Source: Streptococcaceae bacterium ESL0729
Lineage (GTDB): Bacteria > Bacillota > Bacilli > Lactobacillales > Streptococcaceae
Length of the DNA: 64,000 nucleotides
Direction of reading: 5' to 3'
Assembly: GCA_029391995.1 (NCBI GenBank)
Contig: CP113924.1
Coordinates: 239,501 to 303,500 of the forward strand
Below, in pieces: positions 34,471-56,580 of the stretch (position 1 is the first letter of the stretch; every line of letters begins with the position of its first letter). A program made the translations under genes and the position numbers. The notes under the pieces were generated by a model, which was not told where the DNA came from, did not search any database, and was given only the letters and a program-made list of their open reading frames with translations.

Positions 34471-35820
34471 ATGGGACATATTAAATTTGACTACAGTAAT
34501 CTAGCACCTTTTGTTGCAGAACATGAGCTTGCTTACATGCAAGATCAGGTTACAGCGGCTGATAAGATGCTGCGTGAGGGAACAGGTCCAGGGTCTGATT
34601 TCATCGGCTGGCTTGATCTACCTGTAGACTATGATAAGGAAGAGTTTGCTCGTATCAAAGAGACTGCTAAAAAAATTCAATCAGGTTCAGATGTCCTAAT
34701 TGTTATTGGTATTGGGGGATCATACCTTGGTGCCCGTGCTGCCATTGACTTTTTAAATAATTCATTTGTAAACCTTCAGTCTAAAGAAGACCGCAAGGCA
34801 CCGCAAATCCTTTATGCTGGAAACTCAATTTCTTCAAGCTATTTAGCTGAGCTTGTTGCTTATGTGTCAGACAAGGATTTCTCAGTCAATGTAATTTCTA
34901 AATCAGGAACTACTACTGAGCCTGCCATTGCCTTTCGTGTCTTTGAAGAGCTTTTGGTTAAAAAATATGGCCGCGAAGAAGCCAACAAACGCATTTACGC
35001 TACAACTGACCGTGAGCGTGGGGCTGTAAAGGTAAATGCTGATGCCAATAACTGGGAAACTTTTGTGGTTCCTGATGATGTGGGTGGACGTTTCACCGTT
35101 CTTACAGCAGTAGGACTTCTTCCAATTGCAGCAAGTGGTGCTGATATTGATAAACTTATGGAAGGTGCAGCAGCAGCTCGTACTGAATATTCATCTGATG
35201 ACCTTACTAAAAATGAGGCCTACCAATATGCAGCATTACGTAACATTCTTTACCGTAAGGGTAAGGTGACTGAAATCTTAGCCAACTACGAGCCAAGCCT
35301 TCAATACTTCTCTGAATGGTGGAAACAGCTGGCTGGTGAGTCTGAAGGTAAAGACCAAAAGGGTATCTACCCAACTTCAGCTAACTTCTCAACAGACCTT
35401 CACTCTCTTGGACAATACATCCAAGAAGGTATGCGTATCATGTTTGAGACAGTGGTTCGTATCGACAAGGCTCGCCTTAACATTGATATTCCAGCACTTG
35501 ATGAGGATCTTGACGGACTTGGTTACCTTGAAGGACGTGATGTTGACTTTGTTAACAAAAAGGCAGCTGACGGAGTTCTTCTTGCCCACACTGATGGGGG
35601 AGTACCTAACATGATTGTAACCATTCCAGAACAAGATGAGTTCTCACTAGGTTATGCCATCTACTTCTTTGAGATTGCAATCGGTCTATCAGGTTACCTA
35701 AACGGGGTTAACCCATTTGACCAACCAGGAGTTGAGGCCTACAAGAAAAATATGTTCGCCCTTCTTGGAAAACCAGGATTTGAAGAACTTGGAGCTGAAT
35801 TAAACAGCCGTCTTAAATAA
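34471..35820 (+). CDS. pgi: Glucose-6-phosphate isomerase
   Basis: Pgi interconverts glucose-6-phosphate and fructose-6-phosphate in glycolysis. Conserved segments: [49 protein letters not shown], and the C-terminal [20 protein letters not shown]. At 449 residues it has the Firmicutes length. It stands alone between its own promoter and a terminator. Confidence 0.97.
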
Positions 35821-35826
35821 TAATAG

Positions 35827-35856
35827 AAAAAAGACAGGGAGACCTGTCTTTTTTTG
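35827..35856 (+). terminator. Terminator of pgi
   Basis: AAAAAGACAGG-GAGA-CCTGTCTTTTTTT, a compact stem with a T-run, 7 bases after the pgi stop. Confidence 0.9.
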
Positions 35857-35885: not shown

Positions 35886-35947
35886 CTTTAAGAAAACTTA
35901 AAGATTTAATTAAGGAACCTTAAAGTTTGATGTAAGCTTTGAGCAAG
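35886..35947 (+). promoter_or_regulatory. Six 11-bp-phased half-sites, CiaR-box-like array
   Basis: AAG ends at 35892, 35903, 35914, 35925, 35936 and 35947, each exactly 11 bp apart. The hexamers are TTTAAG, TTAAAG, ATTAAG, TTAAAG, TGTAAG and AGCAAG, each separated by 5 bases. The first pair nearly equals the CiaR site TTTAAG-N5-TTTAAG, and the 11-bp phasing is typical of OmpR/PhoB-family response regulators. The last repeat lies where the -35 would be, 8 bases before the -10, as in activated promoters. Confidence 0.7.
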
Positions 35948-35955
35948 CTTTGTCC

Positions 35956-35963
35956 TATAAAAT
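35956..35963 (+). promoter_or_regulatory. -10 region of the VTC operon promoter
   Basis: TATAAAAT is the only -10-like box and lacks a consensus -35; the phased repeats occupy that position. This fits an activator-dependent promoter. AAGGAGG follows at 35975-35981. Confidence 0.65.
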
Positions 35964-35989
35964 AAAAGCAAATCAAGGAGGAAAATATT

Positions 35990-36757
35990 ATGAAATTAAA
36001 AAATGTTTTTCAAAGGAGAGAAGTGAAATATACCATGACCTTTGAACAATATAAAAAGTTAAGGGAGGCAGTCGAGGGTTTACTGACAGAGGACCAATAC
36101 GGGCTTCATACAATTTACTCCCTTTACTATGATACTGATGACTATGCAATGATAAAAAAATCAATTGAAAGACCAGAATATAAGGAAAAATTTAGGGTTA
36201 GAAGCTACGGTAAACCTAAAATAGACGGAGACGTCTACCTCGAAATAAAAAAGAAGGTTTTGGGGGTGGTTTATAAAAGAAGGGTGGCCAGTAATTACGG
36301 CGGCCTATCTCTAGACCATATTGCCTCAAACCTCGAAAGAAATTGTAGCGATTCAGATAAGTCAAATAATCAAATAGCTAATGAAATAACCTACCTTTTC
36401 AGTAACCTTATCTTAAAGCCAAAGGTCCTAATAGCCTATGACAGGAGGGCTTTATTTTCACCAGAGGATGAAGATTTCAGGGTAACCTTTGATTTTAATA
36501 TCAGATATGATTTGGACTCATTAGACTTTAAGGATGAGGATATGACTCCTCTAAGTCCAGAGGTTGACGTACTGATGGAGGTTAAAAGCCTTGGTAGCTA
36601 TCCAATGTGGTTTAGTAGGGCCCTAAGTGAACTTGGGATCTTTAAGGCCAGCTATTCAAAATATGCAAATGTATATAAAAAAATTATTTATCCCTTAGAA
36701 AAAAATAGAAAATTTGATGAAAAATTAGAAGAGATAGGAGAAAAAGCTTATGCTTAG
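35990..36757 (+). CDS. VTC-domain polyphosphate polymerase
   Basis: A 255-residue cytoplasmic protein of the VTC domain family, which makes polyphosphate from nucleoside triphosphates in a triphosphate-tunnel fold. Basic and acidic tunnel strands are visible: RREVKY near residue 9, YYDTDDYAMIKKS, EKFRVRSYG, VYLEIKKK, KVLIAYDRRALF, DVLMEVKS and ASYSKYANVY. It has no membrane segment. AAGGAGG lies 8 bases before the ATG. It is first in a four-gene operon and overlaps the DUF4956 membrane protein by 8 bases, a pairing seen widely in bacteria. The true product has rarely been tested; another polyanion is possible. Confidence 0.87.
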   Translation: MKLKNVFQRREVKYTMTFEQYKKLREAVEGLLTEDQYGLHTIYSLYYDTDDYAMIKKSIERPEYKEKFRVRSYGKPKIDGDVYLEIKKKVLGVVYKRRVASNYGGLSLDHIASNLERNCSDSDKSNNQIANEITYLFSNLILKPKVLIAYDRRALFSPEDEDFRVTFDFNIRYDLDSLDFKDEDMTPLSPEVDVLMEVKSLGSYPMWFSRALSELGIFKASYSKYANVYKKIIYPLEKNRKFDEKLEEIGEKAYA

Positions 36758-37385
36758 CACACTAACTGGAGTAGGGGTTGCCCTAGTCCTAGGACTACTT
36801 ATTGCCCTGGTACATACCTATAGGAATGTATACAGTAAAAATTTTGTTATTACACTGGTAACTCTTCCGGTTCTAGTTCAACTAGTTATCATGCTTGTTA
36901 ATGGGAACTTAGGAACTGGGGTTGCTGTTATGGGAGCCTTCTCACTCGTCCGCTTTAGATCAATTGCTGGTGGGGCGCGTGAAATTACAAGTATCTTTTG
37001 GTCAATGGCTATCGGTCTAGCAGTAGGTACAGGAGCCTACCTTGAAGCAGCTGTATTTTCACTAGTAACAGCAATTATAATTATTTCCCTAAATACAATT
37101 AAATTTGGGGAAAATAACAAAACAGTTGAACGGACCCTTAAAATTACTATAGCTGAAGATTTAGATTTTCCAGGTCTCTTTGATGACATTTTAGACAAAT
37201 ATGCCTATCAAGTTGAAATGGATTCAGTAAAAACAACAAATATGGGAAGTCTATATGAGCTTAGATATAATGTTAAGCTAAAAGATTCTCAAGACGAAAA
37301 GAAATTAATTGACGATATTAGAGTACGTAATGGAAACCTACCAGTAAGTCTTGGTAGATTAGCACAAAATAGCGAGGTATTATAA
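36750..37385 (+). CDS. DUF4956 membrane protein
   Basis: A 211-residue membrane protein with about four hydrophobic segments in the first 120 residues. The family motif GAFSLVRFRSIAGGAREITSIFWSMAIGLAVGTG lies near residues 64-97 between them. A cytoplasmic alpha/beta domain of about 90 residues follows. DUF4956 proteins nearly always accompany VTC-domain polymerases and are a plausible channel or anchor for the polymer, but this is inference. Its stop abuts the start of the next gene. Confidence 0.85.
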   Translation: MLSTLTGVGVALVLGLLIALVHTYRNVYSKNFVITLVTLPVLVQLVIMLVNGNLGTGVAVMGAFSLVRFRSIAGGAREITSIFWSMAIGLAVGTGAYLEAAVFSLVTAIIIISLNTIKFGENNKTVERTLKITIAEDLDFPGLFDDILDKYAYQVEMDSVKTTNMGSLYELRYNVKLKDSQDEKKLIDDIRVRNGNLPVSLGRLAQNSEVL

Positions 37386-38855
37386 ATGAAGACAAAAACA
37401 AATGCAGGTAAGATCAGAAACTTTATTCTATTAGCAAGTACATCCCTTCTTCTTGCAGCATGTTCAAGCAAGGCTGCTACAAGTTCACAGACAACGACAA
37501 CAAGCAGCACATCAACTGTCCAAACTGTTGCAACATCAACTACAGTTGACGAGACTAATGCAACAACCATTGACCTATCAAAGGAAAGTGGTTCAACCGT
37601 TGAAATTACAAAGGCCGGTACCTATATTTTAACTGGGGAATACAAGGGACAGATTCATATAAATGCCAAGGATGAAGAAGTGGTAATTATCCTTAAGAAT
37701 GCAAAAATTACCTCTGATTCAGGCCCAGCCATCTACTCTGAAGCAGCTAAAAACACAGTAGTGAGCCTTCAGGGGGAAAATAGTCTGACTGACTCAAGTA
37801 ATTATCCAACTGGTGACAGTGCCCCTAATGCCACCCTTTATGCGAAAAATGATTTGGTACTTACAGGAGACGGAAGCCTAAGTGTTAAGTCTAATTACAA
37901 GGCAGCTGTTCGTAGTAAGGATATCTTGACCATTGAAAGTGGTACCTACTCAATTGAAAGTACAACAGACGCCCTAAAAGCAACAGACCAAATCCTTGTT
38001 CTAGGTGGTAAGATTGACATTAAGTCAGGAAGTGATGGACTTCAAGCAACAAGTACTAAAGACGGTAAGGGAATCATCACAGTCAAAGGCGGAGAACTTA
38101 ATATCTCAGCAGAGAAAAAAGGTCTTAAGGCTGGTAAGGTTCTAAATATTGAAGGTGGAATAATTAATGTAGTTAAATCTTATGAAGGCTTTGAAGCTGA
38201 GGTGATTAACATTAAAGGTGGTAAGAACTCAATTGTAGCCTCTGATGACGGAATTAATGCAGCAAGCTCAAGCACCACTTCATCAAAAGATACCAGCTCA
38301 AACTCATCAAGCAAGGCCCCTCAAATGGGTCAAGGCGGCCCAAGCCAAGGTGGCGGACAAATGGGCGGTGGTATGCCTGGCGGCCAAGAAGAAGCTGATG
38401 AAAACCTTATTGTAAATATTACAGGCGGGGAGACAGTAATTAAGGCAAGTGGTGATGGAATTGACAGTAATGGGAATATCAACATGTCTGACGGTCTAGT
38501 TTACGTTGAACAAAATGGTGATGGCAATGGTCCCCTTGATTTTGACGGTAAATTTGTTCAAAACGGAGGAACTTTAGTAGCTATGGGTTCAGCAAGCATG
38601 GCCCAAACAACCCAGGGAGATCAGGTCGGATTAGCCCTTTACAAGGAAGCATCTGGTCAAATCACTATTGAGGATGGTAAGGAAACATTAACTTATACAC
38701 CAAGTAATTCTTATGCCTTCCTCTTTGTTTCAACGCCTAATATGTCTAAGGGTGGAACAGTCAAGGTCAACGGCGAAAGCTACAACCTAACTGATACCAT
38801 TACGACAAGTGGTCAAGCAAGCAATCAAATGCGAGGTGGTGGAAGACCCTTCTAA
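37386..38855 (+). CDS. Secreted beta-helix-like lipoprotein (DUF4353 type)
   Basis: A 489-residue lipoprotein. The signal peptide ends in the lipobox LLAAC (Cys about residue 27), followed by a Ser/Thr spacer to about residue 55. Repeated short strands with GG turns (INAKDEEVVIILKNAKIT, VLGGKIDIKSGSDGLQA, VKGGELNISAEKKGLKA, IKGGKNSIVASDDGINA) look like a right-handed beta-helix and match the carbohydrate-binding DUF4353 family. A Gly/Gln/Met-rich insert near residues 310-335 interrupts it. Family members sit beside VTC/CotH genes. It is probably a cell-surface polymer-binding protein. Confidence 0.82.
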   Translation: MKTKTNAGKIRNFILLASTSLLLAACSSKAATSSQTTTTSSTSTVQTVATSTTVDETNATTIDLSKESGSTVEITKAGTYILTGEYKGQIHINAKDEEVVIILKNAKITSDSGPAIYSEAAKNTVVSLQGENSLTDSSNYPTGDSAPNATLYAKNDLVLTGDGSLSVKSNYKAAVRSKDILTIESGTYSIESTTDALKATDQILVLGGKIDIKSGSDGLQATSTKDGKGIITVKGGELNISAEKKGLKAGKVLNIEGGIINVVKSYEGFEAEVINIKGGKNSIVASDDGINAASSSTTSSKDTSSNSSSKAPQMGQGGPSQGGGQMGGGMPGGQEEADENLIVNITGGETVIKASGDGIDSNGNINMSDGLVYVEQNGDGNGPLDFDGKFVQNGGTLVAMGSASMAQTTQGDQVGLALYKEASGQITIEDGKETLTYTPSNSYAFLFVSTPNMSKGGTVKVNGESYNLTDTITTSGQASNQMRGGGRPF

Positions 38856-38903: not shown

Positions 38904-39890
38904 ATGAAAACAACAGGAAAAAAATCAAGGCTTCTGAAGAAAATATCAGTCACCCTAGCTGGACTTCTAACACTAGCAGTCCTTGGGATATATACCTTCT
39001 TTAAAACGGATGTTTTTGCGGATACAAGGGATTTATGGGTCCAAACTGCCATGAGCACAAGTAGCCACAAGTGGCTGGCAACATCATTTTTAAATGATGA
39101 TGAGATAAATAAGATTCTAGCCAAGTACCAGGTAACTAACGATACCAAATCAGACAGCTCAACTATTAACCTCTCAACAAGCTCAAGCTCATCTAGTACT
39201 GACACATCAAATACGTCAATCAAAGAGATAAGTGGCTCAACCTATAAGGGATATGTTGTAACCATTAAAGATCCTTCGACTGTTAAGCTTGTAAATACTC
39301 TAACCTCAAGTGGCGGGGGAACCAAGTTATCTGAAACAGTTAAGGATGAGGGTTATCAAATTGCCCTTAATGCAGCAGGTTTTAACTTTGACAGAAAGAC
39401 TGAGTCAACTGGAGAGAATGCCCTTGATTCCCTAACTATTATGGACGGAAAACTCCTTTACGGAGATCAATCGGAAAGCTATCAAATGATTGGGATGACC
39501 TCAGAAGGTAAGCTCGTTCTTGGTAGCTATACCTATCAAGAAGCCCTTGAAGCTGGAGTTAATGATGCTATCTCCTTTGGCCCATATCTTTTAGTCAACG
39601 GGGAAGAACAGGTTACTGAAAAGGCAACAGGAGGCCTGCAACCAAGAACGGCCATCGGTCAAGCAAGTGACGGAAGTATCTTCTTTGTAGTTATTGAAGG
39701 AAGGTCATCATCGAGTGCTGGTGCAAGCCTATATGACCTGCAAGAGGTTATGAAGAATCTAGGGGCAGTAAATGCAAGTAACCTAGATGGCGGTGGCTCA
39801 AGTGAGATGTACTACGATGGTAAACTCGTTAATCAACTAAGCAATGGAAGTGAAAGGGAAATACCCAATGCTTTTGTTGTAAGTAAATAA
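38904..39890 (+). CDS. Phosphodiester glycosidase (NAGPA) family protein
   Basis: A 328-residue protein with an N-terminal signal anchor (about 13-33), a Ser/Thr-rich stem (about 85-115), and an extracellular NAGPA-type domain from about 120 to the end. Signatures: IALNAAGFNFD, ISFGPYLLVNG, PRTAIGQ, FFVVIEGR and the near-C-terminal NLDGGGSSEMYYDG. Relatives cleave sugar-phosphodiesters such as GlcNAc-1-P-modified groups and occur in exopolysaccharide loci. As the last gene of the VTC operon it may trim or transfer a phosphosugar on a surface polymer; the substrate is unknown. AAAGGA precedes the ATG. Confidence 0.85.
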   Translation: MKTTGKKSRLLKKISVTLAGLLTLAVLGIYTFFKTDVFADTRDLWVQTAMSTSSHKWLATSFLNDDEINKILAKYQVTNDTKSDSSTINLSTSSSSSSTDTSNTSIKEISGSTYKGYVVTIKDPSTVKLVNTLTSSGGGTKLSETVKDEGYQIALNAAGFNFDRKTESTGENALDSLTIMDGKLLYGDQSESYQMIGMTSEGKLVLGSYTYQEALEAGVNDAISFGPYLLVNGEEQVTEKATGGLQPRTAIGQASDGSIFFVVIEGRSSSSAGASLYDLQEVMKNLGAVNASNLDGGGSSEMYYDGKLVNQLSNGSEREIPNAFVVSK

Positions 39891-39921
39891 AAAACCTAGG
39901 GTCATTAACCCTGGGTTTTTA
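39891..39921. terminator. Bidirectional terminator VTC operon / asparaginase
   Basis: AAAACCTAGGGT-CATTA-ACCCTGGGTTTT with one G-T position and T-runs on both strands. Confidence 0.88.
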
Positions 39922-56226: not shown

Positions 56227-56573
56227 GGGGTCGTTACGGATTCGACGGGTATTATTGAGCATGAAGGGCAACTAGGTGGCAAACCTTAACCTGCAAACTT
56301 AAATTAATTGCTAAAAATAGTAATTCATACGCTGTAGCTGCCTAAAAACCAGCACACGTGGACTAGCTTTCATTCGCCCATGGTGAATTTTAGTCCTCAA
56401 AATTAGTGGGATACACTTGAAGGTTGTCTAGCCCTTTAAGGAGAAGATTATAGACTCGTTAAATTCCCAGTTGAGCTATGTCTGTGGATTTAATCAAATT
56501 AATGCATAGCCTATGGTTGTAGAACTTTGTGTAGCAAGATATTCGGACGTGGGTTCGACTCCCACCGGCTCCA
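56227..56573 (+). ncRNA. ssrA: Transfer-messenger RNA (tmRNA)
   Basis: tmRNA rescues stalled ribosomes and tags the unfinished protein. The 5' end GGGGTCGTTACGGATTCGAC and the 3' T-arm and acceptor end GGGTTCGACTCCCACCGGCTCC pair as the alanine-tRNA-like part. The tag frame is at 56310-56345 (GCT resume codon to TAA) and reads AKNSNSYAVAA. The terminal CCA is not encoded (CTCC-A then TTA), so it must be added after processing. Length is about 347 bases. Confidence 0.97.
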
Positions 56574-56580
56574 TTAATGA

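Follow-up and report, generated by a model that had tools for sequence, protein, structure and literature searches.

A six-half-site, CiaR-like array at the promoter of a VTC operon in a Streptococcaceae bacterium

The window analyzed here is a 64-kb stretch of DNA, positions C1:239501-303500 of genome G000, which is a single contig of 1.448 Mb. Between pgi (34471-35820) and a four-gene operon, the window carries six hexamers ending in AAG, separated by 5-base spacers and held in an exact 11-bp register from 35887 to 35947, as read directly from the sequence. The features of the locus, in window coordinates, are as follows; the half-sites are predictions scored with a CiaR matrix.

35827..35854, strand not assigned: terminator hairpin between pgi and the array
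35887..35892, + strand: predicted CiaR half-site 1, TTTAAG (consensus), 9.2 bits
35898..35903, + strand: predicted CiaR half-site 2, TTAAAG, 5.0 bits
35909..35914, + strand: predicted CiaR half-site 3, ATTAAG, 8.2 bits
35920..35925, + strand: predicted CiaR half-site 4, TTAAAG, 5.0 bits
35931..35936, + strand: predicted CiaR half-site 5, TGTAAG, 4.9 bits
35942..35947, + strand: predicted CiaR half-site 6, AGCAAG, weak and promoter-proximal, in the -35 position, -0.4 bits
35958..35963, + strand: -10 element TAAAAT, 10 nt past half-site 6
35975..35981, + strand: ribosome-binding site AAGGAGG, from the sequence
35990..36757, + strand: VTC-domain protein, putative polyphosphate polymerase, 255 aa, first operon gene (PF09359, E 3.5e-36)
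36750..37385, + strand: DUF4956 membrane protein (PF16316)
37386..38855, + strand: Cthe_2159-type carbohydrate-binding protein, putative lipoprotein (PF14262)
38904..39890, + strand: NAGPA phosphodiester glycosidase, probable last operon gene (PF09992)

The VTC domain occupies most of the first protein, with a PF09359 match that covers positions 1-233 of 235 at 125 bits (cut-off 23). Pfam gave no SPX domain match in this protein, and its local alignments to the Vtc3 and Vtc4 structures are weak (E 0.14 and 0.31). Because this similarity to solved structures is not significant, polymerase activity is an inference, and polyphosphate synthesis by this bacterial VTC protein is inferred from the Pfam domain only. 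Beyond the NAGPA gene, a convergent gene ends at 39919. A search for phage matches gave none, and elsewhere in the window a tmRNA gene lies at 56227-56576 (Rfam RF00023, 168 bits).

The first-pass annotation of this DNA had placed the ends of the AAG triplets at 35892, 35903, 35914, 35925, 35936 and 35947, all 11 bp apart, and had likened the 5-base separation of the hexamers to the pneumococcal CiaR site. The positions proved exact on re-reading, and the geometry matches the published TTTAAG-N5-TTTAAG. In full, the published CiaR promoter reads TTTAAG-N5-TTTAAG-N10-TATAAT, with a critical final G in the hexamer (PMC3091779), and in S. agalactiae a TGTAAG substitution is tolerated (PMC9603419). 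T3, A5 and G6 are invariant in verified csRNA promoters. In the window, the consensus-like hexamers are located upstream rather than next to the promoter; the two promoter-proximal hexamers both keep A5 and G6, with T3 present in TGTAAG and absent from AGCAAG, a hexamer found in 4/4 genomes of the window's genus. The array was also said to end at the -35 position, 8 bases from TATAAAAT. That sequence does lie at 35956-35963, but the better -10 is TAAAAT, reached from the sixth half-site through an N10 spacer (AGCAAG-CTTTGTCCTA-TAAAAT) that is found family-wide. Similarly, the description of three tandem pairs is right in that six half-sites are present, but pairing is just one way to count them and the copy number runs from two to six between genera.

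The htrA gene is a known CiaR target and offers a reference for these half-sites. Its promoters carry paired AAG-ending half-sites with N5 between them and N10 to the -10 in 30/30 genomes of seven genera, and in nearly all of these the half-sites are TTTAAG-N5-ATTAAG (three differ). This uniformity indicates that CiaR specificity is stable in the family. Two hexamers of the window array, TTTAAG and ATTAAG, are those seen at htrA, half-site 3 being identical to the second htrA half-site.

VTC genes are present in 75 of 149 Streptococcaceae genomes and CiaR in 144. When 68 VTC upstream regions, many of them related to each other, were scored for a four-hexamer array followed by N10 and a -10, 52 reached the floor p of 0.01 and 58 had p ≤ 0.03. 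In a set of 29 representative VTC promoters, a period of 11 with a gap of 10 gave the highest mean best score, 18.2, compared with 15.8-16.6 when the gap was changed at that period and 13.3-14.3 when the period was changed. Most streptococci have about four half-sites, the window's genus has six, and genus g9 has two; in g9 the promoter reads ATTAAG-N5-GTTAAG-N10-TAAAAT. Within the window's genus, sampled as four species (G000-G003), the nearest congener keeps 74/77 positions of the array and -10, compared with 54/60 plus indels just upstream. The two larger genomes of the genus have TTTAAG, TTAAAG, ATTAAG, AGCAAG, TGAAAG, ATAAAG, N10, TATTAT, and by their spacers half-sites 3-6 of the window align with half-sites 1-4 of these two; the register has thus moved by two half-sites while the total is still six. 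A comparison of the 11-bp phasing in relatives had been proposed as a check, and the phasing is kept in three congeners and across Streptococcaceae.

Outside this family, five non-streptococcal Lactobacillales that have a related VTC operon were sampled, and all five carry a canonical CiaR box at the VTC promoter; it consists of CTTAAG or TTTAAG, N5, TTTAAG or TTTATG, N10, and TANNNT. In four of the five, the sole ciaR orthologue and its kinase gene are found beside the VTC operon: ciaR is divergent from it in G241, directly downstream in both G252 and G227, and beyond it by one small gene in G515, while in G443 it is elsewhere and does not adjoin VTC. These orthologues are 53-59% identical to the window's CiaR, and the VTC-adjacent response regulators of G241, G252 and G515 group with streptococcal CiaR in a single clade (support 100/100). 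In Paenibacillus, with loci fetched by protein similarity, VTC promoters read TTTAAG-ATTCA-TTAAAG-N10-TAAGAT or a near variant, so that half-site 2 of the window, TTAAAG, is the second half-site of many of these promoters too, and an OmpR-type regulator and kinase are directly divergent from VTC. Among the matches of the window's CiaR in four Paenibacillus genomes (12-33 in each), this VTC-adjacent regulator is the best in two and the second in two; these regulators join CiaR with moderate support only (89/81 and 84/70 in two trees). A class-wide survey of Bacilli outside Streptococcaceae found the box or a near variant at 27 of 28 VTC promoters and, at 23 of the 28 loci, a divergent response regulator whose recognition helix resembles that of CiaR, being NNVEVYISFLRKKL or this sequence with one residue changed. 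As most of these loci come from one family (Paenibacillus-type), they are not independent, and since the loci of several further Bacilli families do not show a CiaR-type box at VTC, the link is not universal. The connection to CiaR drawn in the first-pass annotation thereby gains independent support, from ciaRH orthologues that adjoin VTC in Lactobacillales and from CiaR-like regulators divergent from it in Paenibacillus and relatives.

Regulators of the OmpR type bind direct repeats spaced by about one turn of the helix, and the candidates to bind the window array are therefore the four OmpR-type regulators of its genome. These are VicR, PnpR, a BceR-type regulator and CiaR, names that rest on sequence recognition and neighborhood. 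A ciaR/ciaH homologue had been suggested as something to look for, and one clear pair is present, with ciaR at G000:C1:901934-902623 and a CiaH-type kinase gene downstream. This CiaR mostly shares 73-80% identity with its counterparts in other genera of Streptococcaceae, and its recognition helix is conserved (VVEVYISKLRKKL versus VVEVYVSKVRKKL). The window array scores +32 bits with the CiaR matrix, -15 with that for VicR and -17 with that for PnpR. Because the CiaR matrix was built partly from motif-chosen sites and the VicR matrix was written from a consensus, the absolute bit values serve only as a guide; the contrast between CiaR and PnpR does not depend on these caveats.

With the array geometry, its conservation, CiaR in the genome and the neighborhood link established as above, we consider it highly probable that the array is a multi-site, CiaR-controlled promoter that activates the VTC-DUF4956-Cthe_2159-NAGPA operon. 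CiaR binding, ciaR-dependent activation, cooperativity, the signal and polyphosphate production are inferred, without expression or binding data. The 11-bp register would keep every half-site on roughly the same side of the helix. We predict that CiaR, phosphorylated by CiaH or otherwise, would load head-to-tail on the strong distal TTTAAG/TTAAAG/ATTAAG half-sites first and then spread cooperatively along this register to TGTAAG and AGCAAG, the weak half-sites that take the place of a -35. RNA polymerase would then be recruited to TAAAAT 10 nt further on, turning on the operon. With weak proximal and strong distal sites, output may depend steeply on CiaR~P, unlike that of two-site csRNA promoters.

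CiaR could also bind the array and repress or merely tune the operon, as it does at pneumococcal manLMN. Repression of one pneumococcal CiaR target has been reported (PMC8317062), and the extra upstream sites could be structural; against this, the last half-site lies where a -35 would be, 10 nt from the -10, which is the geometry of an activated promoter, and a consensus scan found no forward sigma-70 promoter at the array. We therefore regard repression or tuning as unlikely.

Not all VTC promoters in the family have consensus hexamers. In many streptococci, TTTAAG/TTTCAG alternate with TTTAAT/TTTAAA, the latter without the critical G, and the VTC arrays of genus g5 consist of GTTCAG-type half-sites although htrA in g5 keeps TTTAAG, which makes another regulator possible in that genus. 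Where hexamers depart from the consensus in this way, binding by CiaR may be weak or a different regulator may be at work. In one g5 genome (G007, L282:2495-4499, VTC sense), the genes immediately upstream of VTC encode a VanR-like response regulator and a kinase; we set this two-component system aside because a sister g5 genome keeps the GTTCAG array without it. The g5 hexamers and this neighbor are what would favor a different OmpR-family regulator (VicR, the BceR type or a dedicated neighbor) as the actual ligand for part of the family, with CiaR not the main one. However, besides its negative score, VicR is not matched by its box, since the VicR/WalR motif TGTWAH-N5-TGTWAH is not met and all six window hexamers end in G. 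For BceR of S. mutans, the published site has the inverted-repeat form TTACAA-N2-TTGTAA (PMC11034029), and the VTC-neighboring regulators in other Lactobacillales are CiaR itself. Together these points leave such a ligand quite improbable.

Phosphate and polyphosphate form an obvious functional pair, and PnpR (PhoP type) could be imagined to bind the array and thereby tie polyphosphate synthesis to the supply of phosphate. The sites of PnpR are likewise hexamers held at 11-bp intervals, with up to four in an array: the divergent pstS-pnpR intergenic region (G000, L002:886-1045) holds a clear PnpR (Pho) array, TTTACA-N5-TTTACA-N5-TTTATA-N5-TTTACA, in 11-bp phase. Its hexamer here and in relatives is mostly TTTACA/TTTACC, however, and the Pho box published for pneumococcus reads TTTACA-N5-TTTACA (PMC4913102). 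None of the six window half-sites ends in CA or CC, a test for a TTTACA-type Pho box was met by 0/6 hexamers, and the PnpR score is far below that of CiaR, all of which makes PnpR a very improbable ligand.

In the 64-kb window, a scan of 64 trinucleotides at periods 7-23 on both strands found the six AAG in 11-bp phase to be the sole run of at least six, the reverse-strand match being the same array. None of 200 dinucleotide shuffles of the window reached six (the maximum was five, once), 20,000 shuffles of the 169-bp intergenic region reached at most four, and the expected count of such runs is ~5e-5 per strand. Chance or an AT-rich repeat pattern without function, for which the A+T-rich region and its near-perfect 11-bp direct repeat (GTAAGCTTTGA/GCAAGCTTTGT) might speak, can practically be set aside: the shuffles fail to reproduce the six-fold run, and to judge from the comparative data (conservation across genera with a sharp period and gap, near-complete retention in the nearest congener, recurrence at VTC promoters of other Bacilli) this reading is already contradicted.

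Predicted CiaR promoters are found at other genes as well. A genome scan for the two-hexamer motif, as the first-pass annotation had suggested, locates it, with the N10 spacing to a -10, at htrA and at further genes of the envelope. In the window genome, the bare two-hexamer scan with one mismatch gave 141 matches versus 85 for a reversed control; single matches therefore mean little without a -10 and conservation. An ltaS-type sulfatase gene (G000:C1:1055298-1055341; L073, L253) is preceded by TTTAAG, TTTAAG, TTTATG, N10, TAATAT in 4/4 genomes of the genus, and this promoter suggests that CiaR may control lipoteichoic acid synthesis. Upstream of a prsA-type foldase gene (G000:C1:481417-481460; L077) are TTTAAA, ATTAAG, TATAAG, N10, TAAGAT, with a counterpart at 457018 in G002, and a metallo-beta-lactamase-fold hydrolase gene has two half-sites in 4/4 genus genomes. 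An Nramp (mntH-type) gene has a four-half-site array, N10 and TATACT (G001:C2:18985-19039, L104/L252; G003:C21:62319, L263). Given the ltaS-type, prsA and mntH arrays, more than two half-sites are not unique to VTC; six is the longest array seen. The ciaR gene itself is preceded by TTTCAG-N5-TTTAAG-N10-TAGAAT in G001 and G003 (L116, L107), which suggests possible autoregulation in these two; no CiaR-type site was seen upstream of ciaR in the window genome. Separately, two tandem copies of a short ORF, ~216 bp apart, lie at G000:C1:190479-190722 (L075) with TTTAAGCTGTCTTTTAG inside.

CiaRH is among the best-studied streptococcal two-component systems and has been linked to beta-lactam resistance, competence and virulence; to our knowledge, neither its signal nor its ancestral role has been settled. 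The CiaR box, the regulator and the spacing rule were already known. In the open literature we found no description of a VTC operon under CiaR control, of an array extended in this way or of physical linkage between ciaRH-type genes and VTC, in line with the first-pass statement that no such link was known to be described. The VTC operon is absent from the published CiaR regulon lists consulted, supplementary tables not being covered; those of ciaR mutants may already hold the answer, as SSA_2342 of S. sanguinis is a VTC protein and published S. sanguinis ciaR-mutant tables exist. The CiaR-type box, often with a neighboring CiaR-type response regulator and kinase, in other Lactobacillales and in Paenibacillus and relatives points to an old CiaR-VTC link, as far as sequence comparison can tell. 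A CiaR site and neighboring CiaR-type genes mark the VTC/DUF4956/Cthe_2159 operon, which makes it a concrete candidate for the ancestral function, and both CiaRH signaling and the role of the bacterial VTC operon can now be put to a direct test. The array further suggests that a CiaR promoter can have more than two half-sites. More tentatively, and with more doubt than confidence, we propose that in Bacilli CiaRH began as a two-component system that served the VTC-DUF4956-Cthe_2159 operon alone, and that streptococci later took it over as their general envelope-stress system. If so, the VTC operon would be the ancestral CiaR target, its product or substrate would be a lead to the CiaH signal, and arrays of up to six sites would give graded or switch-like output, unlike two-site csRNA promoters.

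Several known systems resemble parts of this locus. Like the eukaryotic VTC complex (yeast Vtc4), the window protein has the Pfam VTC domain, but it has no SPX match. Streptococci and clostridia have Pel-associated CotH-PPP-DUF4956-DUF4832 accessory genes, which, as described in the available part of the source, likewise put a polyphosphate-polymerase gene together with DUF4956 (PMC7112168); that part names no regulator for the PPP-DUF4956 pair. In contrast, the window operon is without pel or cotH and has Cthe_2159 and NAGPA as partners. The Pho boxes of PhoB/PhoP/PnpR are similar in having several tandem, 11-bp-phased hexamers upstream of a promoter, but their hexamer is TTTACA, unmet in the window array. 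With the CiaR-activated promoters of Streptococcus (csRNA genes and htrA; NTTAAG-N5-TTTAAG-N10-TATAAT), the array shares the hexamer, the 5-bp spacer, the 10-nt gap and the lack of a recognizable -35, in a genome in which the regulator is present and its recognition helix conserved. It differs from them in having six half-sites rather than two, weak proximal half-sites, and a VTC operon as its target.
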